A stretch of DNA of 64,000 bases from Lapillicoccus jejuensis. GTDB taxonomy: Bacteria > Actinomycetota > Actinomycetes > Actinomycetales > Dermatophilaceae. The stretch spans positions 1,178,001 through 1,242,000 of the forward strand of contig NZ_VFMN01000001.1 in the NCBI RefSeq assembly GCF_006715055.1, given 5' to 3'. The notes under the pieces were generated by a model. It ran no database searches and was not told the DNA's origin. It worked only from the letters and a program-made list of their open reading frames with translations. Positions within the stretch are counted from its first letter, which is position 1, and the number at the start of each line of letters is the position of its first letter. Below, one piece after another: positions 15,590 through 34,036 of the stretch. Position numbers and translations under genes: made by a program.

Positions 15590-16534
15590 TCACCGGGCCC
15601 CGTCGGCCGGGGTCGAGGACGGTCCGAGGCCCCGTTCGGCGCGGGCCGGGGAACGGTCTCCGCGCACGCTCGCGACGAGGTCGAGGGCCCGCCGCGTGGC
15701 CCGGACGTCGTGGGTGCGGAAGACCGTCGCGCCGAGCCAGGCGGCGACGGCGGTGGCGGCGAGGCTGCCCTCGAGCCGCTCGTCGGCGGGCAGGTCGAGG
15801 GTCTCGCCGACGAAGTCCTTGCGCGAGATCGCCTGCAGCACGGGGTAACCCAGCGCGACGACGTCCGCGGTGTGCCGCAGGACCCGCAGCGAGTGCGCGG
15901 TCGTCTTCCCGAAGTCGAGGGTGGGGTCGACGAGCACCCGCTCCGGCGCGACCCCCGCCGCGACGGCCCGGGCCGCGCCGTCGGCGAGGGTCGCCACGAC
16001 GTCGCGCACGACGGCGAGCGGGTCGGGCCCGTACGTCGTGTCGACCGGGTCGGTGCGCGGCGGGAGACCACCGGTGTGCGAGACGACGTAGCCGGCGCCG
16101 GTGCGGGCGGCCACGTGGACCAGCTGCGGGTCGTGCCCGGCCCAGGTGTCGTTGACGAGGTCGAGCCCGACCTCGGCCGCCGCCGCGGCGACCTCGGCCC
16201 GCCAGGTGTCGAGGCTCAGCGCGAGGTGCGGGTGGGCGTCGCGGACCCACGCGAGGAACGGGACGACCCGCGCGATCTCCTCGTCGGGCGAGACCCGCTC
16301 GCCCTCCTGTCCGGCCCGCACCCCGCCGACGTCGACGAGGTCCGCGCCCTGCGCGACGGCCTCGTCGACGGCCCGCCGCGCCGAGTCGTCGTCGGCGTGC
16401 CGGTTGCCGGCGAAGAAGGAGTCCGTGGTGCGGTTGACGATCGCCATGACCGCGGGACGGGCCGCGTCGAACTCGCGTCCGCGCAGCACGAGGGGCGCCG
16501 GCCGCGGGAGCGACGGCGGGACGAGCTCAGCCAT
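15590..16534 (-). CDS. folP2: Dihydropteroate synthase-like protein, FolP2 type
   Basis: 314-residue TIM barrel of the DHPS family. The opening strand reads MAIVNRTTDSFF (DHPS usually MGIVNVTPDSF), and DTWRAEVA and LINDTWAG-like motifs follow. The pterin/pABA loop usually written GGESTRPG is GGVRAGQEGE here, as in mycobacterial FolP2, which lacks clear DHPS activity. ISRKDFVGETL and FRTHDV end the barrel. ATG 16534 is used; GTG 16561 would give a GTGA overlap with the preceding ABC gene and is equally possible. Role unknown; possibly pterin- or wall-related. I do not assign folate synthesis. Confidence 0.8.
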   Translation of the reverse strand: MAELVPPSLPRPAPLVLRGREFDAARPAVMAIVNRTTDSFFAGNRHADDDSARRAVDEAVAQGADLVDVGGVRAGQEGERVSPDEEIARVVPFLAWVRDAHPHLALSLDTWRAEVAAAAAEVGLDLVNDTWAGHDPQLVHVAARTGAGYVVSHTGGLPPRTDPVDTTYGPDPLAVVRDVVATLADGAARAVAAGVAPERVLVDPTLDFGKTTAHSLRVLRHTADVVALGYPVLQAISRKDFVGETLDLPADERLEGSLAATAVAAWLGATVFRTHDVRATRRALDLVASVRGDRSPARAERGLGPSSTPADGAR

Positions 16535-16557
16535 GGCGTCACTGTAGGCAGACGCCG

Positions 16558-18501
16558 TCACCCTTCGCCGGGCTGCTCCTCCCGCCCGTCCACCCCGGGT
16601 GCGACCGGGTGGGGGACCGCGTCGAGCAGGCGCTGGGTGTAGTCGTCACGCGGGTGCCGGATGACGTCGAGGGCGCGACCCTGCTCGACCACCCGGCCCT
16701 CGTGGAGCACGACGACCTCGTCCGCGATCATCCGCGCGCTGAGCAGGTCGTGGGTGATGTAGAGGATCCCCACCTCCGACTCACGCACGAGCGACGCGAG
16801 CAGCTCGAGCACCTCGGCGCGGATCGACACGTCGAGGCTGCTGACCGGCTCGTCGGCGACGATGAGCTCGGGCTGCACCGCGAGGGCGCGAGCGATGACG
16901 ACCCGCTGCCGCTGGCCCCCCGACAGCTCGTAGGGGTACCGGTTGGCGAACCGGTCCGACGGGGTCAGCGCCACCCGCTCGAGCAGTGCGTCGACGGCGC
17001 GGTCGAGCTCGGAGCCGCGCAGCCCGCGGTAGTTGTGCAGCGGCCGGGCGAGCGCGTGCCGCAACGTCTTCGCCGGGTTGAGCGACGAGTAGGGGTCCTG
17101 GAAGACGAGCTGGACGTGCGAGCGGTAGTCGCGCAGCGCGCGGCCGCGGTACGACGTCACCTCACGATCGCCCCCGGTGCCGGCGCCGCCGGTCCCCGCG
17201 CCGTGGAACACGACCCGCCCGGAGGTCGGGCGCTCGACGCCGGTGATCATCCGGCCGAGTGTCGTCTTGCCGCTGCCGGACTGGCCGACGAGCGCGGTGA
17301 CCTCACCGCGGCGCAGGACGAAGCTCGCCTCCTGCACCGCCGTGGTCCGGTCGACCCGGAAGCCGCGCCGCCGCTCGAAGACCTTGGTGACGTCCTCGAC
17401 CGTGACGAGCGGCGGCCGGGCCTCCACCCGCTCCACGCTCTCGGCCGTCTTGACGAACTGCGGGCCGGCGAAGCCACGGACCCGCTCGCCCGCCTCGTCG
17501 GCGCCCTCCCCACCCCGTCGCTGCAGGACGGCCACGTGGCAGGCGACCCGGCCGCCGTCGAGATCCTCCAGCGTCGGCTCGACGCTCGTGCACCGGGCGA
17601 TCCGCTCGGGGCAGCGCGGCGCGAACGCGCAGCCGACCACCGGCCGGCTGAGGTCCGGCGGGCGCCCGGGGACGTAGGTGATCCGCACGGTCTCGGCGCG
17701 CGGGTCGCCGTACGAGCCGAGCAGGCCCTTGGTGTAAGGGTGCAGCGGGTCGCGCAGGAGGTCGGCGGCCGTCTGCTCCTCGACGACGCTGCCGCCGTAC
17801 ATGACGAGGATGCGGTCGCTGAGGTCGAGGACGGTGCCGATGTCGTGGCTGATGAACAGGACGGCGAAGCCCTGCTCGGCCTGCAGCCGCCGGACCGCGG
17901 CGAGGATCTCGTGCTGGACGACGACGTCGAGCCCGGTCGTCGGCTCGTCGAGCAGGACCAGCCGCGGCTCGTCGGCGAGGGCCAGCGCGAGGTTGACGCG
18001 CTGCTTCATCCCGCCGGACAGCTCGTGCGGGTAGGCCGACATGAAGCGCGGGTCGATGCGCACCATCTCGAAGAGCTCGCGCACGCGGGCGGTGACCGCC
18101 TCACCGCGCCGGTCGCTGTGCAGCTCGATGACGTCACGGAACTGGTCCTCGACGCGGGCGACGGGGTTGAGCGCGTTCATGCTGCTCTGGAAGACGGTGG
18201 AGATGTCCTTCCAGCGCAGCGGGCGCAGCGCGTCCTCGTCGAGGTCGGTGATGTCGCGGCCGTCGAAGACGATCCGGCCGCCGCTGATCCGGCCCGGCCG
18301 CTCGAGCAGCCGCAGCAGCGCGGTGCCGAGCGTCGTCTTGCCGGAGCCGGACTCGCCGATGACGCCGACGAACTCACCCTCGCGCAGCGAGAAGGAGACG
18401 TCGCGGACGGCGTCGACGGCGTGGCCGCGTCGCGGCTCGTAGCGGACGTGGAGCTCCTGCACCTCGAGCAGGGTCGATCGGTCGGTGAGCACGTCGGTCA
18501 C
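16558..18501 (-). CDS. ABC importer ATP-binding protein with two fused ATPase domains (DppD-DppF type)
   Basis: 647 residues, two complete ATPases in one chain. NBD1 (about 10-320) has Walker A GESGSGKTT, signature LSGGMKQRV, Walker B LVLLDEPTTGLD and a C-terminal oligo_HPY extension with the Cys cluster GCAFAPRCPERIARC. NBD2 (about 365-640) has GQSGSGKTT, LSGGQRQRVVIARAL and LIVADEPVSSLD. It energises uptake through the two permeases encoded upstream; one base separates it from the DppC-type gene. The class carries peptides, nickel or oligosaccharides. Divergence from a GH94/GH3/GH35 operon favours a sugar substrate (inference). Confidence 0.92.
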   Translation of the reverse strand: MTDVLTDRSTLLEVQELHVRYEPRRGHAVDAVRDVSFSLREGEFVGVIGESGSGKTTLGTALLRLLERPGRISGGRIVFDGRDITDLDEDALRPLRWKDISTVFQSSMNALNPVARVEDQFRDVIELHSDRRGEAVTARVRELFEMVRIDPRFMSAYPHELSGGMKQRVNLALALADEPRLVLLDEPTTGLDVVVQHEILAAVRRLQAEQGFAVLFISHDIGTVLDLSDRILVMYGGSVVEEQTAADLLRDPLHPYTKGLLGSYGDPRAETVRITYVPGRPPDLSRPVVGCAFAPRCPERIARCTSVEPTLEDLDGGRVACHVAVLQRRGGEGADEAGERVRGFAGPQFVKTAESVERVEARPPLVTVEDVTKVFERRRGFRVDRTTAVQEASFVLRRGEVTALVGQSGSGKTTLGRMITGVERPTSGRVVFHGAGTGGAGTGGDREVTSYRGRALRDYRSHVQLVFQDPYSSLNPAKTLRHALARPLHNYRGLRGSELDRAVDALLERVALTPSDRFANRYPYELSGGQRQRVVIARALAVQPELIVADEPVSSLDVSIRAEVLELLASLVRESEVGILYITHDLLSARMIADEVVVLHEGRVVEQGRALDVIRHPRDDYTQRLLDAVPHPVAPGVDGREEQPGEG

Positions 18502-18502
18502 G

Positions 18503-19426
18503 TCAGTCCTCCCTCAGGTGCGGGTTGCTCAGCAGGTCGACCCCGAAGTTGACGAAGGTCATGGCGGTGATGAGCACGGCCAGCGCGAGTCCCGGCGCGA
18601 AGACCCACAGCAGCAGGCCCTGGGCGATCGCCCCCTGGGCGTTGGACTGGTAGAGCATCGTGCCCCACGACACGGCGTCGGAGTTGCCGAGGCCGAGCAC
18701 CGCCAGCCCGGCCTCCGCCCCGATGGCCCCGGTGGCCGAGGCGACGAAGCTCGCCGCGACCAGCGACGTCATGTTGGGCATGATCTCGCTGAAGACGATC
18801 CGCCAGGTGCCTTCCCCGGAGAACTTGGCCGCGGTGACGAAGTCGCGGTTGCGCAGGGTGATGATCTGCGCCCGCTTGGCGCGTGCCGCACCGGCCCACG
18901 AGGTGATGGCGATGACGCCGACGATGAGGCCGATGCCGCGCACGTCGGAGTAGGCGACGAGGGTGATGATGAGCGGCAGGGCCGGCACGACGAGCGCGAC
19001 GTTGGTGACGAAGGACAGCGCGTCGTCGACCCACGTCCCCTCGGCGTAGCCGGACACCATCCCGATGACGAGCGCGATGACGGTGGCCAGCAGCCCGCCG
19101 AACAGGCCGACCAGCAACGAGGTCCGGGTGCCGTAGACGAGCTGGGAGAAGATGTCCTGACCCGTCGTCGTCGTGCCGAACCAGTTGGTGGCACTGGGGT
19201 CCGCCAGCGGCGCGAAGGTCGAGTCGTTCGGGTCGTGCGGCGCGATGAGCGGCGCGAGGACCGCGACGAGGACGTAGACCGCGAGGACGACGATGCCGAC
19301 GCGCGCCTTGCGGCTGGACCAGACGACCTCGTACCAGCGCTCGGGGCGGGCGACCTCGGGGACGTCCTGCGTGGTGGGCACGGGGGTGCCGTCCGACATC
19401 GCCCCGGTGGTGGTGACGGCGCTCAT
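18503..19426 (-). CDS. ABC importer permease, DppC type
   Basis: 307 residues. A cytoplasmic N-terminus of about 35 residues and helix 1 (GIVVLAVYVLVAVLAPLI) are followed by the DppC-typical DPSATNWFGTTTTGQDIFSQ region and five more helices. The EAA coupling loop reads FVTAAKFSGEGTWRIVFSEI. The ATG at 19426 overlaps the DppB stop by 4 nt (ATGA). It forms the channel with the DppB-type protein. Confidence 0.93.
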   Translation of the reverse strand: MSAVTTTGAMSDGTPVPTTQDVPEVARPERWYEVVWSSRKARVGIVVLAVYVLVAVLAPLIAPHDPNDSTFAPLADPSATNWFGTTTTGQDIFSQLVYGTRTSLLVGLFGGLLATVIALVIGMVSGYAEGTWVDDALSFVTNVALVVPALPLIITLVAYSDVRGIGLIVGVIAITSWAGAARAKRAQIITLRNRDFVTAAKFSGEGTWRIVFSEIMPNMTSLVAASFVASATGAIGAEAGLAVLGLGNSDAVSWGTMLYQSNAQGAIAQGLLLWVFAPGLALAVLITAMTFVNFGVDLLSNPHLRED

Positions 19427-20412
19427 GCCTGGGCCCTCCTGGCGCGCGGGTCGAGGACGCCGTACAGGAGGTCCGCGACGAGGTTGGCGAGCAGGACGCC
19501 GGTGGTGGTGAGCAGCAGCAGCGCCTGCAGCAAGGGGTAGTCCTTGTTCTGCACGGCCTCGCCCATGAGGCGACCGAGGCCGGGGTAGTCGAAGGCGGTC
19601 TCGACGAGGATCGCCCCGCCGAGCACACCGCCGAGGGCGAGCGCGAACCCGGTCACGCTCGGGAGCAACGCGTTCCGCGCCGCGTAGCGCAGGGCGACCA
19701 CCCGGTCGGGCAGGCCCTTGGCGCGGGCGAGGCGGATGTAGTCCTCGCCGAGGTTCATCACCATCGTGTTGCGCATGCCGAGCACCCACCCGATCGGGGT
19801 GACGATGAGCAGCGCGACGGCCGGCAGCACGGTGTGCTCGAACGACTCCTTGAGGAAGAGCCAGTTCCAGCCCGGGGTCGCGCCGGCGTACCCGCCGGAC
19901 GTGGGGAAGATGCCCGTCGCGTAGCCGAGCACGTAGAGCAGCAGCAGCGCGATCCAGAACGGCTGGAGCGTGCCGAGGAAGGTCGAGCCGAGGGTGACGA
20001 CGGTGTCGAAGCGGCTGTTGCGCCGCCACGCCGCGAACGCCCCGAGCGTGACGCCGACGAGGAAGGACAGCACCTGCGTGGCCGTGACGAGGACCAGCGT
20101 CCACCAGATGCCCTGGCCGATGACGGCCGTCACCGAGTAGGGGTAGTAGGTGTAGGACAGGCCCAGGTCGCCGTGCAGGAGCTGGCCGAGGTAGCCGACG
20201 TACTGGCTCCACAGCGAGCCGTCCGGGGCACCGAGCATCGCGCGGATCGCCTTGACCTGGGCCGGGTCCAGTGCCGCGTCGCGGCCGGCGAGCCGCTGGA
20301 CGAGCTTGGTCGCCGGGTCGCCGGGCTGCAGCCGCGGGATGAGGAAGTTGAGCGTGACGACCGCCCACAGGGTGAGCAGGAAGAAGCCGATCTTGCGGAC
20401 GTAGTACCTCAT
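19423..20412 (-). CDS. ABC importer permease, DppB type
   Basis: 329 residues with six predicted helices, an N-terminal helix with the usual FLIPRLQPGDP motif after it, and an EAA loop around RLARAKGLPDRVVALRYAARN. ATG 20412, 4 nt after the binding-protein gene stop. Second permease of the importer; order is binding protein, DppB, DppC, fused ATPase. Confidence 0.93.
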   Translation of the reverse strand: MRYYVRKIGFFLLTLWAVVTLNFLIPRLQPGDPATKLVQRLAGRDAALDPAQVKAIRAMLGAPDGSLWSQYVGYLGQLLHGDLGLSYTYYPYSVTAVIGQGIWWTLVLVTATQVLSFLVGVTLGAFAAWRRNSRFDTVVTLGSTFLGTLQPFWIALLLLYVLGYATGIFPTSGGYAGATPGWNWLFLKESFEHTVLPAVALLIVTPIGWVLGMRNTMVMNLGEDYIRLARAKGLPDRVVALRYAARNALLPSVTGFALALGGVLGGAILVETAFDYPGLGRLMGEAVQNKDYPLLQALLLLTTTGVLLANLVADLLYGVLDPRARRAQA

Positions 20413-20416
20413 CGCG

Positions 20417-22126
20417 TCACCGGGCCGGGGTGAGGTGGGTGAGGATGAGCAGCTTGTCGTCCGACGGGTTGGCGTACGGGTTCTGCTCGCTGGGCCAGCC
20501 CTGCGCCTTGTCGGTGCGGTAGAGGATCCGCGAGGGCGCGTAGATGAGCGGAGTCACCGGGTACTGCGTGAGCATCGTGTCGACGAGCCGGCCGGCGAGG
20601 GTGGTCTGCTGCGACCGGGCGGCGGTCTTGTCGAGGTCGGCGACGACCGCGTCCGTGGCCGGGTCGTCCCACCGCTGCACGTTGGGGAAGATGTCGGTCT
20701 TGGTGGGGATCTGGCTGCTGACCAGCTTGGCGCCGAGGCCGCGGGCGACGTCGCAGCCGCCGTAGAGGAACTCGAACATCATCTGGAAGTCGCCCGTCTT
20801 CTTGGCCTGGTCGACCGAGTCCGGGGCGGTCGCGGTGACCTGGGTCCGGACGCCGATCCTGTTCAGACCCGCGGCGACGACGTCGGCCATCGCCTGGTAG
20901 TCGATGAACCCGGCCTGGACCGTGAAGGTCACCGCCAGCGGCGAGCCGTCGGGCTCGGTCCGGTAGCCGTCGCTCCCCTTCCGGTAGCCGGCGGCGTCGA
21001 GCAGCGAGCCGGCCTTGGCGACGTCGTACGGGAGCGGGGCGGAGGCGGCCCGGTCGCGGCTGGGCAGCAGCGAGGACTGGTAAGGCAGCTTGAGCCCGGT
21101 CTGGCTGGCGGGCTGCATGATCCCGTACGTCGCCTTGAGCGACATCGCGTCCTTGTCCATGGCGTAGGAGATCGCCTCGCGGAACCTCTCGTCCGAGAAG
21201 GGCCTCTTCTGCGTGTTGGTCGTCAGGACGGTCGAGCCGTTCGGCGCGTACCAGAACTTGTTGGTGCGCGGGTCGGCGCCGACGAAGGTCTTCTGCGGGT
21301 TGGGGATCTCGCCCCAGTAGGCGTCGAGCTGGCCGGCGCGCAGCTTGAGGGCGGCCGACGGGGCGTCGTACGTGCCCTCGAGGACGATCTTGGCGACCTT
21401 GATCTTGTCGGCCTGCCAGTAGTCGGGGTTGCGCTTCAGGGTGAGCCGGCGCCCGTTGTAGGAGTCGACGAGGAAGGAGCCGGTGCCGACCGGGCTCTTG
21501 TCGATGTACTTCGTCGGGTCGCCGACCTTGCCGTAGACGTGCTCGGGGAGGATCGGCGTCTTGATGATCCCCTCGTACTTGCCGACCGCCGGGCCCGAGA
21601 ACGTGAGGACGACCTGGTCGCCCTTCGCGACGACCGAGGACGCCTTGGCGCCGAAGGTGTCGTTCCAGACGCCGGCCTTGTCCGCGGCCTGGTACTGCTT
21701 GCCGAGGTTGAAGGTGAAGGCGACGTCCTGCGCGGTGAACGGCTGCCCGTCCGACCAGCGCACCCCCGGGCGGATGTCGAAGGTCAGCGTCGTCGCGCCG
21801 GTCCACGTCGCCTTGGTCGCGAGCCACGGGGTCTCCGTGCACGACAGGTTGTTGCGCACGATGAGCGGCTCGTAGAAGAACGGCGTCTGGACCAGCGGCT
21901 TGGCCGCCAGCGGGTTGTAGTTCGCCAGCCCGCCCACCGAGTTGTCCGCCTCGGCCGGGAAGGTGAGGACGGGGATGACGTTGCCCCCCACGCCGCTCAC
22001 GCCGGTGCCCGACACCGAGGTGTCGCGCCACCCGCCGCAGGCGGCCAGCCCGGTCGCCAGCCCGGTGGCCAGCACGGCCGAGAGCAGGGCCCTGCCCGGC
22101 CGGGGCAGACCTCGTCGTCGCGTCAT
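20417..22126 (-). CDS. ABC importer substrate-binding lipoprotein, family 5 (SBP_bac_5)
   Basis: 569-residue lipoprotein. The signal peptide ends in the lipobox LAAC. The mature protein shows the SBP_bac_5 landmarks IRPGVRWSDGQPFTAQDVAFTF, PVGTGSFLV, LKRNPDYW and FREAISYAMDK. ATG 22126 has AAGGAG at 5-nt spacing; the GTG one codon up does not. This family binds peptides, nickel, opines and, in several bacteria, beta-linked oligosaccharides. Divergent from the GH94 phosphorylase across a 201-bp region with an inverted repeat over its likely -35, so the sugar role is the best guess. Confidence 0.92.
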   Translation of the reverse strand: MTRRRGLPRPGRALLSAVLATGLATGLAACGGWRDTSVSGTGVSGVGGNVIPVLTFPAEADNSVGGLANYNPLAAKPLVQTPFFYEPLIVRNNLSCTETPWLATKATWTGATTLTFDIRPGVRWSDGQPFTAQDVAFTFNLGKQYQAADKAGVWNDTFGAKASSVVAKGDQVVLTFSGPAVGKYEGIIKTPILPEHVYGKVGDPTKYIDKSPVGTGSFLVDSYNGRRLTLKRNPDYWQADKIKVAKIVLEGTYDAPSAALKLRAGQLDAYWGEIPNPQKTFVGADPRTNKFWYAPNGSTVLTTNTQKRPFSDERFREAISYAMDKDAMSLKATYGIMQPASQTGLKLPYQSSLLPSRDRAASAPLPYDVAKAGSLLDAAGYRKGSDGYRTEPDGSPLAVTFTVQAGFIDYQAMADVVAAGLNRIGVRTQVTATAPDSVDQAKKTGDFQMMFEFLYGGCDVARGLGAKLVSSQIPTKTDIFPNVQRWDDPATDAVVADLDKTAARSQQTTLAGRLVDTMLTQYPVTPLIYAPSRILYRTDKAQGWPSEQNPYANPSDDKLLILTHLTPAR

Positions 22127-22241
22127 CACCGCTCCTTCGCGGTTCGGGGCACGGCTCGTGCCGTCGGTCCGGATGCCGGAGCCGGGACGCCCCAGGGCGC
22201 TCGCGGACGGCTCCGTCCTGGATCAGTCCTACCCCAGTCCG

Positions 22242-22258
22242 GTCTCGTTTGTCGAGAC
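22242..22258. promoter_or_regulatory. Inverted repeat GTCTCG-N5-CGAGAC, candidate operator of the divergent sugar locus
   Basis: Perfect 6-bp arms (22242-22247 and 22253-22258) around a 5-bp AT-rich spacer, in the only intergenic space between the importer operon and the glycosidase operon. On the minus strand a weak -35 (TCGACA) inside the repeat and TAGGAC 18 bp on could form the importer promoter, so a bound repressor would block it. No regulator gene is adjacent. Confidence 0.5.
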
Positions 22259-22290
22259 GCATGACGTCCCCCTGAAGGAGCTGGGGAGGG

Positions 22291-22327
22291 TTGGTCCGGT
22301 CCGCGGGGGTGTGGTTGTCTGGACGGC
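22291..22327 (+). promoter_or_regulatory. Possible leaderless promoter of the GH94-GH3-GH35 operon
   Basis: TTGGTC (22291-22296), 18-bp spacer, TTGTCT (22315-22320), then 7 nt to the GTG at 22328. The 7-nt spacing equals that of other leaderless genes here, and no Shine-Dalgarno is positioned for this GTG. The -10 lacks the usual A at position 2, so confidence is low. Confidence 0.35.
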
Positions 22328-25300
22328 GTGAGCCGGTCGACGACGACGTACGCACCCTCCGCGGACACCCTGACGTGGGCGAATCCCGTTGGCGTGCAAC
22401 TGGTCTGTACGCGATCGGGGTCACCTCTCGCCCTGCGGTACGGCGACCTGGACCTCCTGCAGCTGCCCGCCTCCGAGCTCGAGGACGGGCTGGTCCGTCT
22501 CGTGCTCCGAGTCCGCGGAGTGGGACGCGACGGCACCCCGACGGGTGAGCGGCGGCTCGTCCCGCTCGTCGGGCAGCACGCCCCCGCCCGGGTCGTCCCG
22601 GGCCCCCACGGGCCGGTGGCCGCGGGCACGGACGGTGGGCTGTCCTTCCGCGCCGTCCTGCGCCCGGCCGTCGCCGTCGCGGGGTGGGTGTGGCACGTCG
22701 AGGTGACCAACGTCGGCGACGAGACCGTCGAGGTCGACGTCGTCCACACCCACGACGTCGCGCTCGCCCCGCACGGGGCGGTCCGCTCCAGCGAGGCCTA
22801 CGTCAGCCAGTACCTCGACCTCACCCCGGTGGCCGTCCCGGGGCACGGCACCGCGGTGGCGGTGCGCCAGAACATGCCCGGGGAGCGGCAGCCGTGGGCG
22901 CTGCTCGGTGGCCTCGGCCGGGTCGTCGCGTGGTCGACCGACGCGCGCCAGCTCGCCGGCGACGGCGCGGGCGGCCTGCCCGGGCTGGCCCACGACCTGC
23001 CGTCGACCCGCCTGCAGCACGAGCACACCCTCGTCGGGCTGCAGAGCGAGGCGGTGCGGCTCGCCCCCGGGGACCGCACCCGCACGGGCTTCTTCGGCCT
23101 CGTCCGCGACGACCACGCGCAGGCCAGCGGCCCGGCGGACGCGGACCGCGCGCGGGTGGTCCTCGACGACCCGGCCGCGGCGCTCGTCGAGCTCGACGAG
23201 CCCGGCGACCTCGACGAGGGCGTCGGGGGCGCCGTCGTCCGCTCGGCGTTCACGCTCGCCGACGACCTCGCCTGCCGGGTCCTGGGCGACGACGAGCTGG
23301 TGACGCTGACCGGGGTCCCCCGCGAGCGGTGGGCGCAGGTGGAGACCGGGCCCGACGGCGCGCTGTGGTCGGCCTTCCTCGAGGACGGCGCCCACCTGGT
23401 CACCGCGGCCAAGGAGTCGGCCGTCCTGCGCCCGCACGGCCACGTGCTGCGCACCGGCAGCCACCTCGTGCCCGACGAGCGCGGCGTCACCTCCACGGTG
23501 TGGCTGGCGGGCGGGTTCGCGGGCCAGGTGACCCAGGGCCACGTCGCCCTCGGCTCGGTGCTGTCGCTGCGACGGACCCACCTCGGCCTCCAGCAGGCCA
23601 GCGGTCTGCGGATCCTGCTGCGGGAGGACGGTCGCGGCGACGAGCCGTCGTCCTGGCGGCTGCTCGGCCGCCCGTCGGCGTGGGTCGTCGAGCCCGGACG
23701 CTGCCGCTGGTTCTACGCGGTGGAGCAGGCGCCCGGCCGGCCGGGGCCCGTCGTCGAGGTCGCCACGACCGCACCCACCGACCGGCACGAGCTCGAGGTC
23801 GACGTCGTGGTGCACGGCGGGGCGTCGTACGTCGTCCGCGCGGCGCTGCACGTCGCCCTGGGCGGCGACGACGGCGCGACGCCCGTCGACCTGCCGGTCG
23901 AGCACCGTGTCGGTGGTCTCGTGGTCCGCCCCCCGGCGGGCAGCGACACCGCCGCGCGCTACCCGGGCGGCCGGGTCGAGCTGGCCTGGACGGGGGCGGT
24001 CGAGGTCGGCGACGACGGCACGCTGCTCGAGGACGGGCGCTCGGTCGGTCTGCCGTGGGTCACCCTCACCACCGCGCCCACCGACCGCTGGCGCCTCACC
24101 CTGCGACCGCACCTGGTCGCCGACGACGCCGCCGCCGACGACCTCACCCACGCCCAGGACCTCCCGGCCGGCCCGCAGACGGGCGACGCGTGGGCGCGGC
24201 GGGCGGCCGCCCTCGTCCTCGACCCGCCCGCCGGCGAGGCGGGCGAGGAGGTGACGCGGCTCCAGCGGGTGCTGCCGTGGTTCGCCCACGACGCCCTCGT
24301 GCACTACCTCTCCCCCCGCGGGCTCGAGCAGTACACCGGCGGCGGGTGGGGTACCCGCGACGTGTGCCAGGGACCGGTGGGGCTGCTCGCCGGGCTCGGC
24401 GAGGCGGACGCCCTCGTCGACGTCGCCCGCCGGGTCCTCGCCGCGCAGAACGCCCGTGGCGACTGGCCGCAGGCCTTCGACTTCCTCGCGCGGCACAAGT
24501 CCTTCGGGCAGTGGGACAGCCACGGCGACGTCGTCTACTGGCCGCTGCTCGCCCTCGCCGACGTCCTCGAGGTGACCGGGGAGCGCGCGCTGCTGCGCGA
24601 GCGGCTCCCCTTCACCGGCGACGGCGGTTGGACCGAGCCGGCGGAGGTGCTCGAGCACGTCCGGCGCGCGCTCGACCTCGTCGAGGGCACCTTCGTGCCC
24701 GGCACCCACCTGCCGCGCTACGGCCACGGGGACTGGAACGACTCGCTGCAGCCCGTCGACGCCGACCTGGCCCGCCACCTCGTGTCCACGTGGACCGTCG
24801 TGCTCCAGGCGCAGGCCCTGCTGGCGCTCGAGGCCGCCCTGCTCGACCGCGGTCACGAGAGCGACCCGCCGGTCCTGGCCCTCGCCGCCCGCTGCCGGGA
24901 GGTCGCCGACGCCGGGGTCCGCGACCTGCGCACGCACCTCGCGCCCGACGGGGTCCTCGCCGGCTACGGCGTCTTCGACGACGACGGCCGGCTGCAGGGC
25001 CACCTGGTGCACCCGCGCGACACCCGCACCGGGCTGACCTACAGCGTGCTGCCGATGATCCACGCCGTGACCGGCGACGTGCTCACGGCCGGCGAGGCGC
25101 GCCGGCACCTCGCCCTCGTGGCGAAGCACCTCACCGGCCCCGACGGCACCCGGCTCTTCGATCGGCCGGTGGCCTACCGTGGTGGGCCCATGGAGGTCTT
25201 CCAGCGGGCCGAGGCCAGCACCTTCTTCGGCCGCGAGATCGGGATCATGTACACCCACGCCCACCTGCGGCACGCGGAGGCGCTGGCCCGGGTCGGCGAC

Positions 25301-25894
25301 GGGGCCGGTCTGCTGCGGGGGCTCGCGCTGGCCAACCCCGTGGGGGTGACCGACCGGGTGCCGTCGGCGCGGCCGCGCCAGGCGACGACGTACTTCTCCT
25401 CCTCCGACGCGGCCTTCGCCGACCGGACCGAGGCCGACCGCGGGTACGCCGGCGTCCTCGACGGCACCGTGCCGCTCGAGGGCGGCTGGCGCGTCTACTC
25501 CTCCGGGCCGGGCCTCGTCATGCGCCTGGTCACCGAGACCCTGCTCGGCGTCCGCCGGCGCGGCTCCGTCGTCGAGCTCGACCCGGTCCTCGACCCCGGC
25601 CTCGACGGGCTGCGGGCGACGGTGACGCTGCTCGGTCGCCGCTGGCGGGTCTCGTACGCCGTGGCCGGACGGGGGTACGGCGTCACCCGGGTCTCGTTCT
25701 CACCCGGCGCCCGCGCGGAGCCGGCCGAGCTGGCGACGCGCGCGCTCGAGAACCCGCACCGCACCCCGGGGGTGGCCGTCGACGTCGACGTCCTCACGGC
25801 CGCCGTCGCCGCCGCTCCCCCACCCGGGCCCGGTGACCGGGCCGACCCGTCCGACCCCGACGACCTGCCGCACCTGCACGTGGAGACCTCGTGA
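22328..25894 (+). CDS. GH94 glycoside phosphorylase, probably 1,2-beta-oligoglucan phosphorylase
   Basis: 1188 residues. N-terminal beta-sandwich domains (including the AYVSQYLDL and RQNMPGERQPWALLGGLGRV blocks) precede an (alpha/alpha)6 barrel (about 640-1000) with GGGWGTRDVCQGP, SFGQWDSHGDVVYWPL and the GH94 catalytic motif HGDWNDSLQ (residues about 800-807). The family breaks beta-glucosidic bonds with phosphate, releasing glucose-1-phosphate. Length and N-terminal blocks suit the roughly 1100-residue sophorooligosaccharide phosphorylases, known from Listeria innocua next to a GH3 beta-glucosidase as here, rather than the roughly 800-residue cellobiose phosphorylases. No signal peptide, so cytoplasmic. 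Linkage specificity is inferred. Confidence 0.8.
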   Translation: MSRSTTTYAPSADTLTWANPVGVQLVCTRSGSPLALRYGDLDLLQLPASELEDGLVRLVLRVRGVGRDGTPTGERRLVPLVGQHAPARVVPGPHGPVAAGTDGGLSFRAVLRPAVAVAGWVWHVEVTNVGDETVEVDVVHTHDVALAPHGAVRSSEAYVSQYLDLTPVAVPGHGTAVAVRQNMPGERQPWALLGGLGRVVAWSTDARQLAGDGAGGLPGLAHDLPSTRLQHEHTLVGLQSEAVRLAPGDRTRTGFFGLVRDDHAQASGPADADRARVVLDDPAAALVELDEPGDLDEGVGGAVVRSAFTLADDLACRVLGDDELVTLTGVPRERWAQVETGPDGALWSAFLEDGAHLVTAAKESAVLRPHGHVLRTGSHLVPDERGVTSTVWLAGGFAGQVTQGHVALGSVLSLRRTHLGLQQASGLRILLREDGRGDEPSSWRLLGRPSAWVVEPGRCRWFYAVEQAPGRPGPVVEVATTAPTDRHELEVDVVVHGGASYVVRAALHVALGGDDGATPVDLPVEHRVGGLVVRPPAGSDTAARYPGGRVELAWTGAVEVGDDGTLLEDGRSVGLPWVTLTTAPTDRWRLTLRPHLVADDAAADDLTHAQDLPAGPQTGDAWARRAAALVLDPPAGEAGEEVTRLQRVLPWFAHDALVHYLSPRGLEQYTGGGWGTRDVCQGPVGLLAGLGEADALVDVARRVLAAQNARGDWPQAFDFLARHKSFGQWDSHGDVVYWPLLALADVLEVTGERALLRERLPFTGDGGWTEPAEVLEHVRRALDLVEGTFVPGTHLPRYGHGDWNDSLQPVDADLARHLVSTWTVVLQAQALLALEAALLDRGHESDPPVLALAARCREVADAGVRDLRTHLAPDGVLAGYGVFDDDGRLQGHLVHPRDTRTGLTYSVLPMIHAVTGDVLTAGEARRHLALVAKHLTGPDGTRLFDRPVAYRGGPMEVFQRAEASTFFGREIGIMYTHAHLRHAEALARVGDGAGLLRGLALANPVGVTDRVPSARPRQATTYFSSSDAAFADRTEADRGYAGVLDGTVPLEGGWRVYSSGPGLVMRLVTETLLGVRRRGSVVELDPVLDPGLDGLRATVTLLGRRWRVSYAVAGRGYGVTRVSFSPGARAEPAELATRALENPHRTPGVAVDVDVLTAAVAAAPPPGPGDRADPSDPDDLPHLHVETS

Positions 25895-28113
25895 CCCCGA
25901 CCCGCCGCACCGCCACCGCCCCCGACCGCCCGTGGCTCGACCCCGCCCTCGACGTGGAGCGCCGCGTCGACCTGCTCGTCGACGCGATGACGACCGAGGA
26001 GAAGGCGGCCCAGCTCACCCAGGTCGACAACCTCGAGCCCGGCCGCGACGCGGACCTCCTGCGCCGCGGCGTCGGCTCGAGCCTCTACGCGAGCGGGGCG
26101 ACGGCGGGCAACGTCCGCGACGGCGGCGTGCTCGCGTCGGCCGTCGACGAGTGCCAGCGGCTCGCGGTCGAGGGGTCGCGGCTGGGTGTCCCCGTCCTCT
26201 TCGGCCGGGACGTCATCCACGGGCACCGCACCGTGGCCCCCATCCCCCTCGGGCTGGCCGCCACCTTCGACGTCGACCTGCTGCGCCGGGTCAGCGCGCT
26301 CGCCGCCCGCGAGGCGAGCACCGAGGGCGTCGCCTGGACCTTCGCCCCGATGATGGACATCTCCGAGGAGCCGCGCTGGGGGCGGGTCGCGGAGTCGCTG
26401 GGCGAGTCCCCCGTCCTCGCCGGCCGGCTCGCCGCCGCCATGGTCGAGGGCTTCCAGGGCACCGCGCGCGAGCGGCGCGACGGGGCCCGCGAGCAGCAGG
26501 GGGGGCGGCCCACGCTCGGCGCGACGGCCAAGCACTACGTCGGCTACGGGCTCGTCCAGGGCGGGCGCGACTACGACACGGTCACCGTCGGCGAGAACAC
26601 CCTGCGCAACCTGCACCTGCGACCGTTCCGCGACGCCGTCGACGCCGGCGTGATGGCCGTCATGGCCGCCTTCAACGACGTCGACGGCGTGCCCATGCAC
26701 GCGCACCGGCACCTGCTGCGCGACGTCCTCAAGGGCGAGTGGGGCTTCGACGGCGTCGTCGTCGCGGACTGGAACGGCATCGGCCAGCTGGTCAACCAGG
26801 GCGTCGCCGCCGACCTGCGCGACGCCGCCCGGCAGGCGCTGCTCGCCGGGGTCGACCTCGACATGTGCTCGGGCGCCTACCTCGACCACCTGCCCGACCT
26901 GGTCGAGGACGGCGAGGTCCCGCTCGACCTCGTCGACGACGCGGTGCGCCGGGTGCTGCGGATGAAGCTGCGGCTCGGGCTGTTCGAGTCGCCGTACACC
27001 GACCCGTCGCGGACGCTCGCCGCCCCCGGACCGCAGGAGCGGGCCCTGGCCCGCGAGGCCGCCGCCCGCTCGATGGTCCTCGTGAAGAACGACGGGCTGC
27101 TGCCGCTGCACGCCAACATCGGCAAGATCCACCTGGCCGGACCGTTCGTCCACGACGGCGACGCGCTGCTGGGGACCTGGGTGCTGGACGGGCGGGGCGA
27201 GGAGGTCGTCACCCCGGCGCAGGCCTTCGCCGAGCGGCTCGCGGCCGAGGACCTCGTCGTCTCCGACGGACGCTTCTCCGACGTCGCCATGTCGATGGTC
27301 CGCGAGGCCGAGGTGACCGTCGCCGTCGTCGGCGAGCACCGCAGCCGCAGCGGCGAGGACCGCTGCATCAGCACGCTCGAGCTGCCCGCCGGCCAGCTCG
27401 AGGTGCTCGAGGAGATGGCCGGGCTCGGCAAGCCGCTCGTCGTGGTCGTGCACACCGGCCGGCCGCTCGAGCTGGGACGGGTCCTCGAGCTCGCGGACGC
27501 CGTCCTCGTCGCGTGGCACCCCGGCACCGAGGCCGGCCACGCGCTCACCGACGTCGTCTTCGGCGACGTCTCCCCCAGCGGGCGGCTCCCGATGACGTTC
27601 CCCCGCACCGTCGGCCACATCCCGAGCAGCTCGCACGAGCGCCCCACGGGGCGGCCGATCGACCGCGACCGCGACCGCCAGCTCGGCCGCTACCTCAACT
27701 CGCTCGTCTTCCCCGAGCTCACCTTCGGCTACGGGCTGACCTACACGCACATGGAGTACGGCGACCTCGAGGCCTCGCGGACCACGTTGCCCGTCAAGGG
27801 GAACGGCTCGGTCAGCGTCTCCGTCGAGGTGACCAACACCGGGGTGCGCGCCGGTCGCGAGGTCGTCCAGCTCTACGTGCGCGACCTCGTCGCCGACGTC
27901 ACCCGGCCGCTCGTCGAGCTCGCCGACTGGCGGGTGGTCGACCTCGAGCCGGGCGAGTCGACCAAGGTCGTCTTCAAGGTGACGCCGCGGATGTTCGGCT
28001 ACCACGACCGCGAGCTGCGCTGGCGCGTCGACCCCGGCGAGGTCGACGTCATGGTCGGCCCGAACGCGGCCTACTTCAGCCGGGTCCGGCTCACCCTGGT
28101 GGACGGGAAGTGA
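25891..28113 (+). CDS. GH3 beta-glucosidase
   Basis: 740 residues, no signal peptide. The TIM barrel (about 15-350) has GRDVIHGHRT, FAPMMDISEEPRWGR, KHYVGYG and nucleophile Asp293 in VVVADWNG. An alpha/beta-sandwich domain follows (about 380-580; GEHRSRSGEDR), then a fibronectin-III-like C-terminus (VTNTGVRAGREVVQLYV). It hydrolyses terminal beta-glucose from di- and oligosaccharides. GTG start overlaps the GH94 stop (GTGA), so coupled translation. Beside GH94 it probably completes breakdown to glucose, for example of sophorose left by the phosphorylase. Confidence 0.93.
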   Translation: MTPTRRTATAPDRPWLDPALDVERRVDLLVDAMTTEEKAAQLTQVDNLEPGRDADLLRRGVGSSLYASGATAGNVRDGGVLASAVDECQRLAVEGSRLGVPVLFGRDVIHGHRTVAPIPLGLAATFDVDLLRRVSALAAREASTEGVAWTFAPMMDISEEPRWGRVAESLGESPVLAGRLAAAMVEGFQGTARERRDGAREQQGGRPTLGATAKHYVGYGLVQGGRDYDTVTVGENTLRNLHLRPFRDAVDAGVMAVMAAFNDVDGVPMHAHRHLLRDVLKGEWGFDGVVVADWNGIGQLVNQGVAADLRDAARQALLAGVDLDMCSGAYLDHLPDLVEDGEVPLDLVDDAVRRVLRMKLRLGLFESPYTDPSRTLAAPGPQERALAREAAARSMVLVKNDGLLPLHANIGKIHLAGPFVHDGDALLGTWVLDGRGEEVVTPAQAFAERLAAEDLVVSDGRFSDVAMSMVREAEVTVAVVGEHRSRSGEDRCISTLELPAGQLEVLEEMAGLGKPLVVVVHTGRPLELGRVLELADAVLVAWHPGTEAGHALTDVVFGDVSPSGRLPMTFPRTVGHIPSSSHERPTGRPIDRDRDRQLGRYLNSLVFPELTFGYGLTYTHMEYGDLEASRTTLPVKGNGSVSVSVEVTNTGVRAGREVVQLYVRDLVADVTRPLVELADWRVVDLEPGESTKVVFKVTPRMFGYHDRELRWRVDPGEVDVMVGPNAAYFSRVRLTLVDGK

Positions 28114-30584
28114 CCGTCGAGCTCGCCCGCCACCGGATCCTCGAGGACGGCGAGCCGCGCCTGGTCCTCGCGGGCGAGGTCCACTACTTCCGGGTGCCGC
28201 GCGAGCAGTGGGGTCAGCGGCTCGACCTCGTCCGCGAGGTCGGGTGCACGACCGTGGCGTCGTACGTGCCGTGGCTGTGGCACGAGCTGCCCGACGGGAG
28301 CATCGACGTCACCGGCGCCACCCGTCCGGAGCGCGACCTGGGTGCGTTCCTCGACCTGTGCCACGAGCGCGGGTTCGACGTCCTCGTGCGACCCGGGCCG
28401 TTCCAGATGGCCGAGCTGAAGAACGAGGGGCTGCCCTACCGGCTCCACCGGGAGCACCCCGAGATCGTGCCGACCGGCTGGGACGGGGTGCCCGCGACGA
28501 CGGACACCGTCGACTACCTCGCGCCGGCGTTCCTCGCCGAGACGCGGCGGTGGTTCGACGCGGTGCTGCCGGTCGTCGCGGCGCGGACGGTGGACCGGGG
28601 CGGTCCGGTCTCGATGCTCCAGCTGGACAACGAGATCGGGATGCTCGCCTGGGTGAGCAACTCCCCCGACCTCACCGACGACCTGCTCGCCGACCTGCGG
28701 CGGTGGTGCGGGGCGACGTACGGCGACGCCCTGGGGGACCGCTACCCGCTGGACGCCGACTGGCGCTCCGTCGTCGAGTCGCCGGACGAGGAGTGGGCGG
28801 CCGCGCTGCGCGTCGACCTCACCCGGTTCGTGCGCGGCCGCTTCGCGCGCTACGTGCGGGCGCTGACCGCCCTGGTGCGCGGGCACGGCATCGACGTGCC
28901 GCTCTGCGTCAACGTCCACGGCACCGAGGGCGGCAACGGCGTCCCGTTCGCCATCGGCGTGAGTCAGCTGGTCGAGACGTGGGCCGGCGTGCCGGGGCTG
29001 TTCGCCGGGTCGGACCACTACCTCGGCGACCTCAGCCTCGACGTGACGACGGACCTGCACTTCGTCTCCGCCGTGATGGCCGCGGTCAACGGCCCGGACC
29101 AGCCGCTGACGTCGCTCGAGTTCGAGGCGGGCACGGGCGACTACGGGGGCGGTGCCGACCGGCTGTACGACGCCTCGACCGTCGACCTCAAGGCGCGGCT
29201 CGCCCTCGCGCAGGGCAACCGGCTGATCAACTACTACCTGCTGGCGGGCGGGGTGAACCCGCGCCTCGACGAGCCGGTGGGCGACGGCAACGACCGGATC
29301 AGCCACACCGGCGAGCGGCACGGCACCGCGGCCCCGATCGGTCCCGAGGGGCAGCAGGGCATCGCGTTCGCGTCGACCCGCGACGTCACCCACGTCGCGG
29401 CGCGGCACGCGCAATGGCTCGCCGACGGCGACGAGGAGCTCGACGACCTCGCGGTCGGGTTCTGGGCCGACGCCTTCGCGACCGAGTACCGGTACCCGGG
29501 GTCGGCGGCGATGTCCGCCGTCGTCGAGGACCTCGAGCGGCACCGGGGGCCCGGGCCGCGCAAGGCCCTGTGGCGCTCGCTCCTGTTCTCCGGATACCGC
29601 TTCTCAGGAGTGGACCTGACGAGCGAAGCACCGTGGCCGACGGTCGTCGCGCTGTCCGTCGGCCGGGTCCTCGACGCCGACGTCCAGCGCCGGCTGGCCG
29701 CGCACGTCACCGGCGGGGGCGCGCTGCTGCTGCTGGGGAAGGTCCCGACGCTGGACCTCCAGGGGCGACCGTGCACCCTGCTCGCCGACGCGCTCGGCGT
29801 CCGCGCGGGCGAGGTGGTCGCGGATCGACGGCACCGCTACGGCTCGGTCGTCGGGGTCGGGGCGGCCGCCCCGGCGGGCGCGGAGCGGACGAGCGAGGTG
29901 CGCGCCGGCTGGTTCGAGCTGCTCGAGGCGGTCGACGACGCCGCGGCCGAGCCGGTGCTCCGCGACGCCGACGGTCGCGTGTGCGGGCTCGAGGTCCGCG
30001 CCGGCGCGGGTCGTGCGGTGCTGCTCTGCGCCGAGCTGCCGTCGTGGCCCGAGGTGTTCGCCCGGTTGGCCACCCACCTCGGCGCCGCGCCCGGGCTGGT
30101 GCTGAGCACCGACGTCCCGGGGGTCGTCGTCACGACGACCCGCACCCCGTCGGACGACCGGCTGCTGCACCTGCTCGCGCCCCAGGGCTACGACGCCCAC
30201 GTCACCGTCACCGAGGACGGCTCACCGCTCGCCGGCGGCCCGCTCCTCGTCCCGGCCCGCACCGGTCACCTGCTCGCCCTCGGGCTCACCCTCCCCTGGG
30301 GTCGGCTGCTCGCCTCCAGCGCCGAGCTGACGGCGTACGACGACACCTCGCTCACCCTCGCGCCCGGGCTGGGCGACGGCCGGGGTGGTCCCGGCATCTG
30401 GTGCGTCCTGCAGGTGCCCGTCGGCTCCCGGGTCGTCGCACCCGACGCGGACGTCGAGGTGGTGGAGCGCGCCGACGACGTCGGCACCGGCGGCGACGAG
30501 GCGGGGCACGGGTCGTCGTACCGCGTCGTGGTCCGCCGGTCGGGCCCCCCGGCCCCCCTGCGGGTCGAGGTCTCCCCCACCTGA
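28110..30584 (+). CDS. GH35-family enzyme (annotated class beta-galactosidase; possibly beta-1,2-glucosyltransferase)
   Basis: 824 residues, cytoplasmic. The GH35 barrel starts with LAGEVHYFRVPREQWGQRL, and YVPWLWHELPDGSIDVTG and VRPGPFQMAELKNEGLP follow. The acid/base is Glu175 in LDNEIG, and the nucleophile is a Glu of SLEFEAG (337/339). From about 560 there is a Rossmann-like amidotransferase-fold region, then a beta-rich end. The usual EW..GW nucleophile context of beta-galactosidases is altered to EFEAG. A GH35 member has, to my recollection, been shown to act on beta-1,2-glucooligosaccharides, which would suit the GH94/GH3 neighbours. GTGA overlap with the GH3 gene. Confidence 0.82.
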   Translation: MTVELARHRILEDGEPRLVLAGEVHYFRVPREQWGQRLDLVREVGCTTVASYVPWLWHELPDGSIDVTGATRPERDLGAFLDLCHERGFDVLVRPGPFQMAELKNEGLPYRLHREHPEIVPTGWDGVPATTDTVDYLAPAFLAETRRWFDAVLPVVAARTVDRGGPVSMLQLDNEIGMLAWVSNSPDLTDDLLADLRRWCGATYGDALGDRYPLDADWRSVVESPDEEWAAALRVDLTRFVRGRFARYVRALTALVRGHGIDVPLCVNVHGTEGGNGVPFAIGVSQLVETWAGVPGLFAGSDHYLGDLSLDVTTDLHFVSAVMAAVNGPDQPLTSLEFEAGTGDYGGGADRLYDASTVDLKARLALAQGNRLINYYLLAGGVNPRLDEPVGDGNDRISHTGERHGTAAPIGPEGQQGIAFASTRDVTHVAARHAQWLADGDEELDDLAVGFWADAFATEYRYPGSAAMSAVVEDLERHRGPGPRKALWRSLLFSGYRFSGVDLTSEAPWPTVVALSVGRVLDADVQRRLAAHVTGGGALLLLGKVPTLDLQGRPCTLLADALGVRAGEVVADRRHRYGSVVGVGAAAPAGAERTSEVRAGWFELLEAVDDAAAEPVLRDADGRVCGLEVRAGAGRAVLLCAELPSWPEVFARLATHLGAAPGLVLSTDVPGVVVTTTRTPSDDRLLHLLAPQGYDAHVTVTEDGSPLAGGPLLVPARTGHLLALGLTLPWGRLLASSAELTAYDDTSLTLAPGLGDGRGGPGIWCVLQVPVGSRVVAPDADVEVVERADDVGTGGDEAGHGSSYRVVVRRSGPPAPLRVEVSPT

Positions 30585-30585
30585 C

Positions 30586-30717
30586 CCGGACTGCTGCGGG
30601 AAGGGGACGTCGACGTCACCCCAGGATCCGGACTGCTGCCCGACCGGGACCTCGACGTCACCCCACGATCGGGACTGCTGCCCGACCGGGACCTCCCCTC
30701 CCCGCAGCAGTCCGGAT
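30586..30717. repeat. Repeat array A: three 42-bp direct units plus one inverted end
   Basis: Units begin at 30586, 30628 and 30670 (exact 42-bp period). Each reads CCGGACTGCTGC, a variable hexamer, GGGACGTCGACGTC-like, then CACCCC. The third unit is cut and followed by the head in inverse orientation (30702-30717). It starts 2 bp after the GH35 stop, in the same orientation as that gene. Related units occur at 53.4 and 54.0 kb. Confidence 0.85.
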
Positions 30718-30727
30718 CAGGGGGTGG

Positions 30728-30815
30728 TGGCGGTGGGTGTGGGATTCGAACCCACGAGAGGTCACCCTCTGGTCGCTTTCAAGGCGACTGCACTCGGCCA
30801 CTATGCGAACCCACC
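30728..30815 (-). tRNA. tRNA-Ser(TGA)
   Basis: Minus strand, 85 nt plus an encoded CCA. Acceptor GGTGGGT/ACCCACC, anticodon stem GTCGC/GCGAC with loop CTTGAAA (anticodon TGA, reads UCN), long variable arm (AGAGGGTGACCTCT) and T-arm GTGGG-TTCGAAT-CCCAC. Discriminator G. Confidence 0.95.
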
Positions 30816-31162
30816 CGAGCGGGGCCAGTCTCCCAGACCGAGCGGCCGGTGGGGCACGGGAGGTGCGGTGCCGCCCACGCTCGTCCGCCCGGACCCCGAT
30901 CCCGGCGGAGGGTGCTGCGGCACCGCACCCGTCGTCGGCGCCTCCCGATGTGACGCCGACTCCGTGTGGTTCCGACGCCCCCGATGGGCCGGAACATCGG
31001 GGAAGGAGCGGGGCCCTACCGTCCTGATACACGGTTCTCGGAAGAAGTTCGGCGGGCCGCGCACGTATCAGCCGACGCCGATCGCGCTCCTTGCGCTGCA
31101 GACGCCCCTACCCTGAGCCGGACGGGGGACCCGACGAGCACGCGCACCGAGGAGACCGGGCC
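30816..31162. other. Intergenic region before the S8 protease cassette
   Basis: 347 bp with no supported gene. It contains an inverted repeat CCCCGATG-N8-CATCGGGG (30979-31002) that could be a terminator or operator. TACCCT (31109-31114) is a possible -10 for the protease gene, without a clear -35. The last bases hold its GAGGAG ribosome site. Confidence 0.45.
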
Positions 31163-33417: not shown

Positions 33418-33983
33418 CCGACGACCTCACGACCCCGTCGCCTCAGGAGCAGGCGCTCGCCGCCGGCACCCTCGACACCGTCGACCTCGACGCGCTCACG
33501 CACCTGCGCCGGCTGTGGGAGGCGGTCGATCCCGTCCCCACCGGTCTCACCGAGCGGATCCGCTTCGCCATCAGCCTCGGCGACCTCGAGGCCGAGGTCG
33601 CCCGGCTCCAGCGCGAGGGCGTGCCGGAGCTCGTCGCCCGGGGCGACGCCCGGCTCGACGACGCGCAGCGCGCGCGGACGGTGACCTTCACCTCCGACAC
33701 GGTGACGACGATGGTGACGATCACCGACACCGGCGGGACGGCGCCCGCGGGCACCCCGTCCGCCGGCGGTGCGCCCGGCACCGTGCGGGTCGACGGGTGG
33801 TCCACCCCCGGGGCCGGCCTGCGGGTCGAGCTGCGGACGGGGGGCGCCAGCCACGAGACGGTCGCCGACGACCACGGCCGCTTCGTCATCGACGGGGTCC
33901 CGCACGGCCTGGCCCAGCTGGTGCTGCGGCCCGCCGAGGGCACCGACGGGCCCACCGTCGTCACGCCCGCGCTCGAGATCTGA
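33414..33983 (+). CDS. Small cytoplasmic protein with C-terminal Ig-like domain, possible sigma partner
   Basis: 189 residues, ATGA overlap with the sigma factor. Residues about 25-80 are helical and acidic (LRRLWEAVDPVPTGLTERI, then DLEAEVARLQREG). Residues about 95-185 are a beta-sandwich like carboxypeptidase-regulatory domains (PGAGLRVELRTGG then GRFVIDGVPHGLAQLVL). No membrane segment and no Cys pair. By position it could be the anti-sigma factor or an adaptor, but it matches no anti-sigma family I recognise. The function is not assigned. Confidence 0.75.
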   Translation: MTDDLTTPSPQEQALAAGTLDTVDLDALTHLRRLWEAVDPVPTGLTERIRFAISLGDLEAEVARLQREGVPELVARGDARLDDAQRARTVTFTSDTVTTMVTITDTGGTAPAGTPSAGGAPGTVRVDGWSTPGAGLRVELRTGGASHETVADDHGRFVIDGVPHGLAQLVLRPAEGTDGPTVVTPALEI

Positions 33984-34036
33984 CCACTCGCCGCCGGGGG
34001 TGCGGCGGCGAGCGGTGGGCGGCCCGACGCCCTGGC

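Follow-up and report, generated by a model that had tools for sequence, protein, structure and literature searches.

The closest described clusters for the use of sophorooligosaccharides (Sop-n) come from Listeria, Ignavibacterium and Streptomyces. In Listeria innocua (lin1839-lin1841), the genes of a 1,2-β-oligoglucan phosphorylase (SOGP) and a GH3 β-glucosidase are adjacent and have an ABC importer beside them, whose Sop-n-binding protein is Lin1841 (PMC12369401, PMC8861115). The Ignavibacterium album cluster of IaSGT (IALB_1185) brings together a GH35 β-1,2-glucosyltransferase, a GH94 SOGP homologue, an importer with a Lin1841 homologue, and two GH144 genes (PMC8861115). Among actinobacteria, Streptomyces griseus has a Sop-n cluster (SGR_2422-2427) that includes an ABC importer; it comprises GH1 and GH193 enzymes and a Lin1841 homologue, and SOGP is not among the genes listed for it (PMC12369401). 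In the literature on oligoglucan phosphorylases with sophorose, or with a gene cluster and transporter, titles and the starts of abstracts name no family-5 importer, subscription journals lying mostly outside that coverage.

Here we analysed 64,000 nucleotides of the Lapillicoccus jejuensis genome (the window; NZ_VFMN01000001.1, positions 1,178,001 to 1,242,000), a single contig of 4.58 Mb. Judged from its sequence, the seven-gene locus described below is very probably a β-1,2-glucooligosaccharide utilisation locus, including the import and breakdown roles proposed for its genes (rough probability 0.86). It would represent a variation on the Sop-n utilisation clusters already described, distinguished by its family-5 importer. 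As in Listeria, SOGP and GH3 genes are adjacent with an importer beside them, but the importer belongs to family 5 with a fused ATPase rather than to the CUT1 kind of Lin1841, and a GH35 gene is added. An IaSGT-type GH35, a GH94 SOGP homologue and an importer are shared with I. album, whereas here the importer is of family 5 and a GH144 homologue lies 15.5 kb away. The enzymes are thus of known kinds, and their pairing with a family-5 importer seems to be undescribed. The features are as follows.

16514-30726, 14.2-kb stretch from folP to tRNA-Ser(UGA), its limits being the ends of DNA alignment
16558-18501, minus strand, fused double ATPase of the family-5 importer (two ABC_tran stretches and oligo_HPY; Pfam)
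18503-19426, minus strand, DppC-type permease (Pfam BPD_transp_1 and OppC_N in frame)
19423-20412, minus strand, DppB-type permease (BPD_transp_1, 133 bits)
20417-22129, minus strand, family-5 solute-binding lipoprotein (SBP_bac_5, 220 bits; PDB 6lzt, 1.1e-42)
22130-22327, divergent promoter region with an inverted repeat at 22242-22258
22328-25894, plus strand, GH94 SOGP homologue (1,2-β-oligoglucan phosphorylase), 1188 aa (Pfam, PDB, pocket residues)
25891-28113, plus strand, GH3 β-glucosidase homologue (Pfam; Lin1840, 436 bits)
28110-30584, plus strand, GH35 β-1,2-glucosyltransferase (IaSGT) homologue (PDB match, residues)
30728-30815, minus strand, tRNA-Ser(UGA), its 3′ end abutting the extra stretch
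46063-47361, minus strand, GH144 β-1,2-glucanase homologue, 15.5 kb from the locus

Open reading frames and Pfam confirmed the coordinates that the initial annotation had given for the seven genes, and the 4-base overlaps of GH94 with GH3 and of GH3 with GH35 match the coupled operon it described. The alternative-frame ORFs at 18498-19628, 20409-22424 and 28208-31027 had no Pfam match (opposite-strand ORFs over GH94, GH3 and the ATPase were left out). The divergent layout of importer and SOGP recurred in 11 of 80 fetched relatives and in one contig-truncated locus (L002), indicating that it is no chance arrangement.

By its profile scores and residues, the GH94 protein is an SOGP homologue, as had been suggested. 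Pfam matched SOGP_N at 152 bits and SOGP_2nd at 81 bits (cut-offs 27), and the best solved relative was LpSOGP (5h3z and three other entries; 427 bits, E 1.2e-126), whereas cellobiose phosphorylases reached 28.8 bits and lower, the next distinct sequence having an E value of 2.4e-6. The GDWND motif was confirmed, its last residue, D805, being equivalent to the LpSOGP catalytic acid D760. The enzyme matched in PMC8565777 is EC 2.4.1.334, which differs from SOGP (EC 2.4.1.333). Seventeen pocket residues are named for LpSOGP in PMC5309861, and 14 of them are identical in the window protein. The departures are N138 to S, G623 to T and A626 to G, at positions whose contacts in LpSOGP are water-mediated only and which are not treated as family-defining (PMC5309861). 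The identical residues include H924 and S1006, sulfate-site counterparts that do not touch phosphate in LpSOGP (PMC5309861). All seven catalytic-acid, −1 and phosphate residues (R630, D631, W758, D760, E917, Y922, S1005) were identical, and so were all seven that make direct contacts or form the pocket at +1/+2 (Q621, D631, Y1004, D760, R907, R916, Y141).

Fifteen of the pocket positions were then counted on an alignment of 81 GH94 rows (the window and 80 loci), the counterparts of G623 and A626 being read off the pairwise PDB alignment instead. Ten positions were unchanged in all 22 actinobacterial rows, and Y1004, S1005 and S1006 each departed only by one gapped row. Y141 was Phe in one actinobacterial row; N138 was Ser in three of the 22 (the window and two others) and in one of the 59 non-actinobacterial rows. 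Outside positions 138 and 141, departures in those 59 rows were gaps, one row at a time.

The GH3 protein matched β-glucosidases in general: Lin1840 scored 436 bits and the top solved relative 514 bits, so GH3 does not discriminate. One family-5 locus (L010) lacks GH3. The GH35 gene of the initial annotation is present, and its product can be sharpened to probably a β-1,2-glucosyltransferase: its best PDB relative was IaSGT (199.7 bits, E 7.6e-58), compared with 151 bits (E 3.6e-43) for an exo-glucosaminidase. Y52, E102, N175, E176, N275, E343 and Y378, the seven catalytic or −1 residues of IaSGT, among which N175 is used to separate IaSGT from glucosaminidases (PMC8861115), were kept and did not vary across the 14 aligned rows, of which the window protein is one. 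No signal peptide was visible by eye at the GH35 start.

IaSGT Arg349, at the +1 subsite, is replaced by Gly in the window protein, and Leu100 by Met; both places vary in many IaSGT homologues, and many lack Arg349 (PMC8861115). The Gly at position 349 means that the GH35 acceptor may differ. This variability of the acceptor site, the aryl and alkyl glucosides that IaSGT itself takes (PMC8861115), and the absence of a β-1,2-glucanase gene from the 14.2-kb stretch would suit a locus whose real substrate is another β-glucan or a sophoroside or glycolipid head group, for example of a glucosylated natural product. We regard this as unlikely, as the direct sophorose contacts of SOGP at +1/+2 are kept in GH94.

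The importer had initially been called Dpp-type. Its assignment to family 5 stood, with SBP_bac_5, DppB- and DppC-type permeases and an oligo_HPY ATPase all present by Pfam; the binding protein, however, is not nearest to DppA, and the label misleads as to ligand. This protein matched SBP_bac_5 alone and not the CUT1-type SBP_bac_1, and carries a lipobox-like LATGLAAC (by eye). As far as titles and PMC8449061 tell, its first eight PDB rows were Vibrio chitin-oligosaccharide binders at 145-150 bits: 5yqw, 6lzq and 7ebi are named chitin-oligosaccharide-binding protein in PMC8449061, 1zty is such a binder by its PDB title, and the other 6lz rows and 7ebm are taken to be the same Vibrio protein. 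The next rows were 8i5j (145 bits, its title giving no ligand) and Thermotoga-like entries down to the "mannoside" binder 4pfu (132 bits), and nickel binders scored about 90 bits. Seven further family-5 binding proteins were found in this genome; two of them, taken as controls, scored 190 and 99.6 bits against DppA, and chitin-oligosaccharide binders were missing from the best 60 of 68 rows of one and from all 48 rows of the other. A Dpp-type peptide role was set aside, because DppA reached 50 bits against 150 for VhCBP and the two controls showed the opposite. So far as can be computed from sequence, neither outcome named as refuting the initial annotation occurred: the GH94 protein goes with SOGP, and within family 5 the closest solved relatives of the binding protein are sugar binders.

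The nearest solved binding protein is VhCBP (Vibrio; family 5, cluster C-VI), although at about 150 bits only. Its residue Asp365, the largest contributor to binding in VhCBP (PMC8449061), corresponds to D410 of the window protein, an Asp in all 13 aligned rows; at the position of Trp363 every one of the 13 has an aromatic residue (6 W, 6 F, 1 Y). Asn204, in contrast, met Ala in the alignment, and Trp513 fell just past the end of the alignment, where no Trp occupies the position expected for it. Of the four residues that cluster C-VI sugar binders have in common (Asn204, Trp363, Asp365, Trp513), two were thus unmatched. Because of these two unmatched residues, and because nickel binders score above DppA, the glucan pocket of the binding protein is a candidate only. 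An AlphaFold2 model built from 13 rows was too poor to use (pLDDT 45). In a comparison with DppA, the profile alignment ends five residues short of DppA residue D408, and ungapped extension would give an invariant Gly there.

The importer might then carry peptides, nickel, or chito- or cello-oligosaccharides, its divergence from the SOGP operon being incidental. Family 5 includes many peptide and metal importers, the best matches of the binding protein are chito-oligosaccharide rather than β-1,2-glucan binders, and the unmatched C-VI residues fit as well. No GlcNAc-pathway gene was recognised in the window locus. This alternative appears improbable in view of gene linkage. SOGP homologues occurred in 27 of 186 genomes of the same family, its own included (E ≤ 1e-50), and the binding protein in 17 (E ≤ 1e-80), one of which (G167, 35% identity) lies outside the 27. 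In 16 of 16 genomes with a close orthologue of the binding protein (E ≤ 1e-217), this gene adjoined SOGP divergently, with 202-331 bp between the matched stretches, order and spacing being read from match coordinates. The 16 genomes represent 8 genera as coded there, and related ones among them are not independent. The search scores only the best first-look candidates per genome, which makes a missing match less certain than a found one. Eleven of the 27 SOGP-bearing genomes were without this binding protein, indicating that SOGP does not need it.

The importers found near SOGP in relatives also argue against an incidental divergence. Among the 80 fetched loci, 21 were actinobacterial: 12 had the family-5 type, 6 had a CUT1-like importer near SOGP, and in 3 (L004, L005, L020) neither type was recognised by eye. 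Eleven of the 12 family-5 loci had all four importer genes, and the twelfth, L002, a 6646-base Lapillicoccus sp. MAG contig contained in the same-genus genome G084, is cut by its contig ends. The same layout was present in Nocardioides and Micropruina records (L008, L022, L036) and in two MAGs (L007, L010). Pfam confirmed SBP_bac_1 near SOGP in 5 of 5 CUT1-like loci scanned (the sixth, L011, was left out), and the SBP_bac_1 protein of L067, the sole one compared with PDB, was closest to Lin1841 (E 1.1e-62). The proposal that a peptide-class importer takes the place of a CUT1 one thus finds its natural comparison in the CUT1-type systems near other actinobacterial SOGP genes. On an SOGP tree made from homologues only by a quick method, the two importer labels needed 3 changes, one of which rests on L017, and the window SOGP together with L002 was sister to the CUT1 trio L006/L037/L067 (SH-aLRT 96). 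The CUT1 set of L017 may be an unrelated neighbour, since a similar-looking gene lies beside the family-5 set of L012 (by eye).

At L017 (13353-16739; Terrabacter sp. Root85), SOGP and GH3 are kept, GH35 is partial and the family-5 importer is absent. Its near relatives L015 and L019 have the full gene set, which suggests recent decay or rearrangement in L017.

If the β-1,2-glucan reading holds, these loci name the likely importer of β-1,2-glucooligosaccharides in a set of actinobacteria. Family-5 binding proteins are often annotated as peptide binders, and the occurrence of family-5 and CUT1 importers beside the same phosphorylase would allow a direct test of ligand prediction for them.

Regulatory features were shared by the family-5 loci. 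In 11 of 11 loci with a whole family-5 importer, a gene of one cluster follows the ATPase gene, and the L012 copy is LacI-type by Pfam. Nine of these 11 loci carry the palindrome ATGWAAGTACTTWCAT, with at most 1 mismatch, in the promoter region that separates the two divergent operons, and L007 and L010 carry it with 3 and 4 mismatches; this again speaks against an importer placed there incidentally. Since the motif was identified in these same regions, its presence in 9 of 11 carries no independent weight; its absence elsewhere does, with no match within 2 mismatches in 1.33 Mb of other loci. ATGWAAGTACTTWCAT was absent within 4 mismatches from the window and L002, and within 2 from the window genome, where no close LacI was found either (best match 32% identical); the L002 contig ends before the place of the LacI gene. 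The window, at 22242-22258, and L002 have in common the inverted repeat GTCTCG-n5-CGAGAC. In the window genome this exact repeat occurs once; G084 carries it at one further place besides L002. With one mismatch allowed, 40 of 100 shuffled versions of the window reach the two matches seen. Conservation in L002 and the single exact copy make this repeat a weak candidate operator. A sigma-70 promoter scan of the 22130-22327 intergenic region found nothing.

A working scheme for the locus can be proposed from these assignments. The family-5 lipoprotein would capture Sop-n derived from the linear or cyclic β-1,2-glucans of other bacteria and pass them on to the permease pair and its fused ATPase. 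Once inside the cytosol, the predicted site of the enzymes, chains of at least three glucoses would be phosphorolysed by SOGP to glucose 1-phosphate, and GH3 would hydrolyse the leftover sophorose. GH35 may move β-1,2-glucosyl units between oligosaccharides or onto glucosides; sophorose being too short for SOGP, we propose that GH35 lets it re-enter as longer chains. Flux in the opposite direction, with the locus making β-1,2-glucan or glucosides from glucose 1-phosphate, is conceivable in that Lin1839 builds β-1,2-oligoglucans from glucose 1-phosphate in vitro (PMC3960220), but is very improbable here, for catabolism fits the binding-protein importer, the GH3 glucosidase and the LacI-type regulator of relatives.

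The initial annotation mentioned neither an insertion nor the GH144 homologue at 46063-47361. In another genome of the same genus (G085), the folP reading frame lies about 68 bp after tRNA-Ser(UGA) and the 14.2-kb locus is missing; the searches also found no SOGP or binding-protein gene anywhere in G085. Sequence of G084 (L100) spans the folP/ATPase junction of the window, so at least the folP side of the locus sits at the corresponding site in G084. By these alignments, the locus is a discrete, inserted or lineage-specific gene set, and gain in the window lineage and loss in G085 fit the three genomes equally well. Its ends, compared as 16480-16660 against 30560-30840, shared no word of 9 bases or longer and no att-like repeat, and by Pfam none of its seven genes encodes an integrase. 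The putative LacI operator motif and the empty site together offer a handle on how such loci come and go.

Several features adjoin the stretch. In the window, folP (15590-16561) overlaps the ATPase stop by 4 bases, while in G085 it closely follows tRNA-Ser(UGA); a change in its expression is possible. A 42-bp tandem repeat of 2.6 copies occupies 30586-30695, in the interval from the GH35 stop to tRNA-Ser, and an inverted partner of its core GGACTGCTGC comes after it; the repeat is possibly related to a terminator or boundary. At 31091-36658, a subtilase-like gene, a sigma-70 region 2 gene and a gene for an 865-aa CHAT-domain protein form one run; this DNA has an alignable counterpart in G085, next to tRNA-Ser(UGA).

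The GH144 homologue at 46063-47361 is the sole PF10091 match of the window genome. Its match to XcSGL, a GH144 enzyme with demonstrated activity on β-1,2-glucan, scored 468.5 bits, and the clan residues E239, F286 and Y367 of XcSGL (numbered by our own count) were E, F and Y in the window protein; the crystallised chain has Q at 239, which we take for the mutation introduced to obtain the complex. No signal peptide was visible by eye at its start. PF10091 matches occurred in 53 of the 186 family genomes, that of the window being the sole strong one (268 bits versus 73 for the next), and in 12 of the 27 SOGP-bearing genomes such a match fell within 10 kb of the SOGP match, as read from coordinates. 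The gene belongs to an 8.35-kb block (46048-54398) that is also missing from G085 and further contains the following.

47558-48808, protein with a signal-like start and no Pfam or PDB match
48918-49886, HTH (TrmB/LuxR-like) protein
50017-53322, GH92 homologue

A random place would fall within 15.5 kb of the locus with a chance of 0.7% (about 31 kb of 4579 kb), a figure that is post hoc and that an insertion-prone region would raise; the closeness of GH144 to the locus is therefore suggestive, and a link between them would be a tentative one.

In 6 of the 12 family-5 loci, a clan-SGL-like protein (β-1,2-glucanase clan) is encoded after the LacI gene, which points to polymeric β-1,2-glucan and argues against the sophoroside alternative. 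The start was in view in 5 of the 6 and showed no signal peptide by eye, the call in L019 being a fragment. Three of the 6 were checked with Pfam and one with PDB, where its best relatives were cyclic glucan synthases; going by PMC12102758, these proteins may belong to GH193. No protein like the clan-SGL one of L013 was found in the window genome (E ≤ 0.001). It is possible, though we hold it as a tentative extension, that the importers form an unrecognised Opp-family class that takes up long or cyclic β-1,2-glucans whole, a "selfish" route in which cytosolic clan glucanases cut first: GH144 here, and GH193/GH189-like proteins in relatives, none with a visible signal peptide, would act before SOGP, GH3 and GH35. 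Such a route, if true, would be one of uptake for rhizobial and agrobacterial cyclic glucans.

Beyond the actinobacteria, the proteobacterial or myxococcal SOGP loci L045, L052, L057, L059, L060, L072, L076 and L081 have a GH144 homologue about 6-7 kb upstream, 50-55% identical to that of the window.
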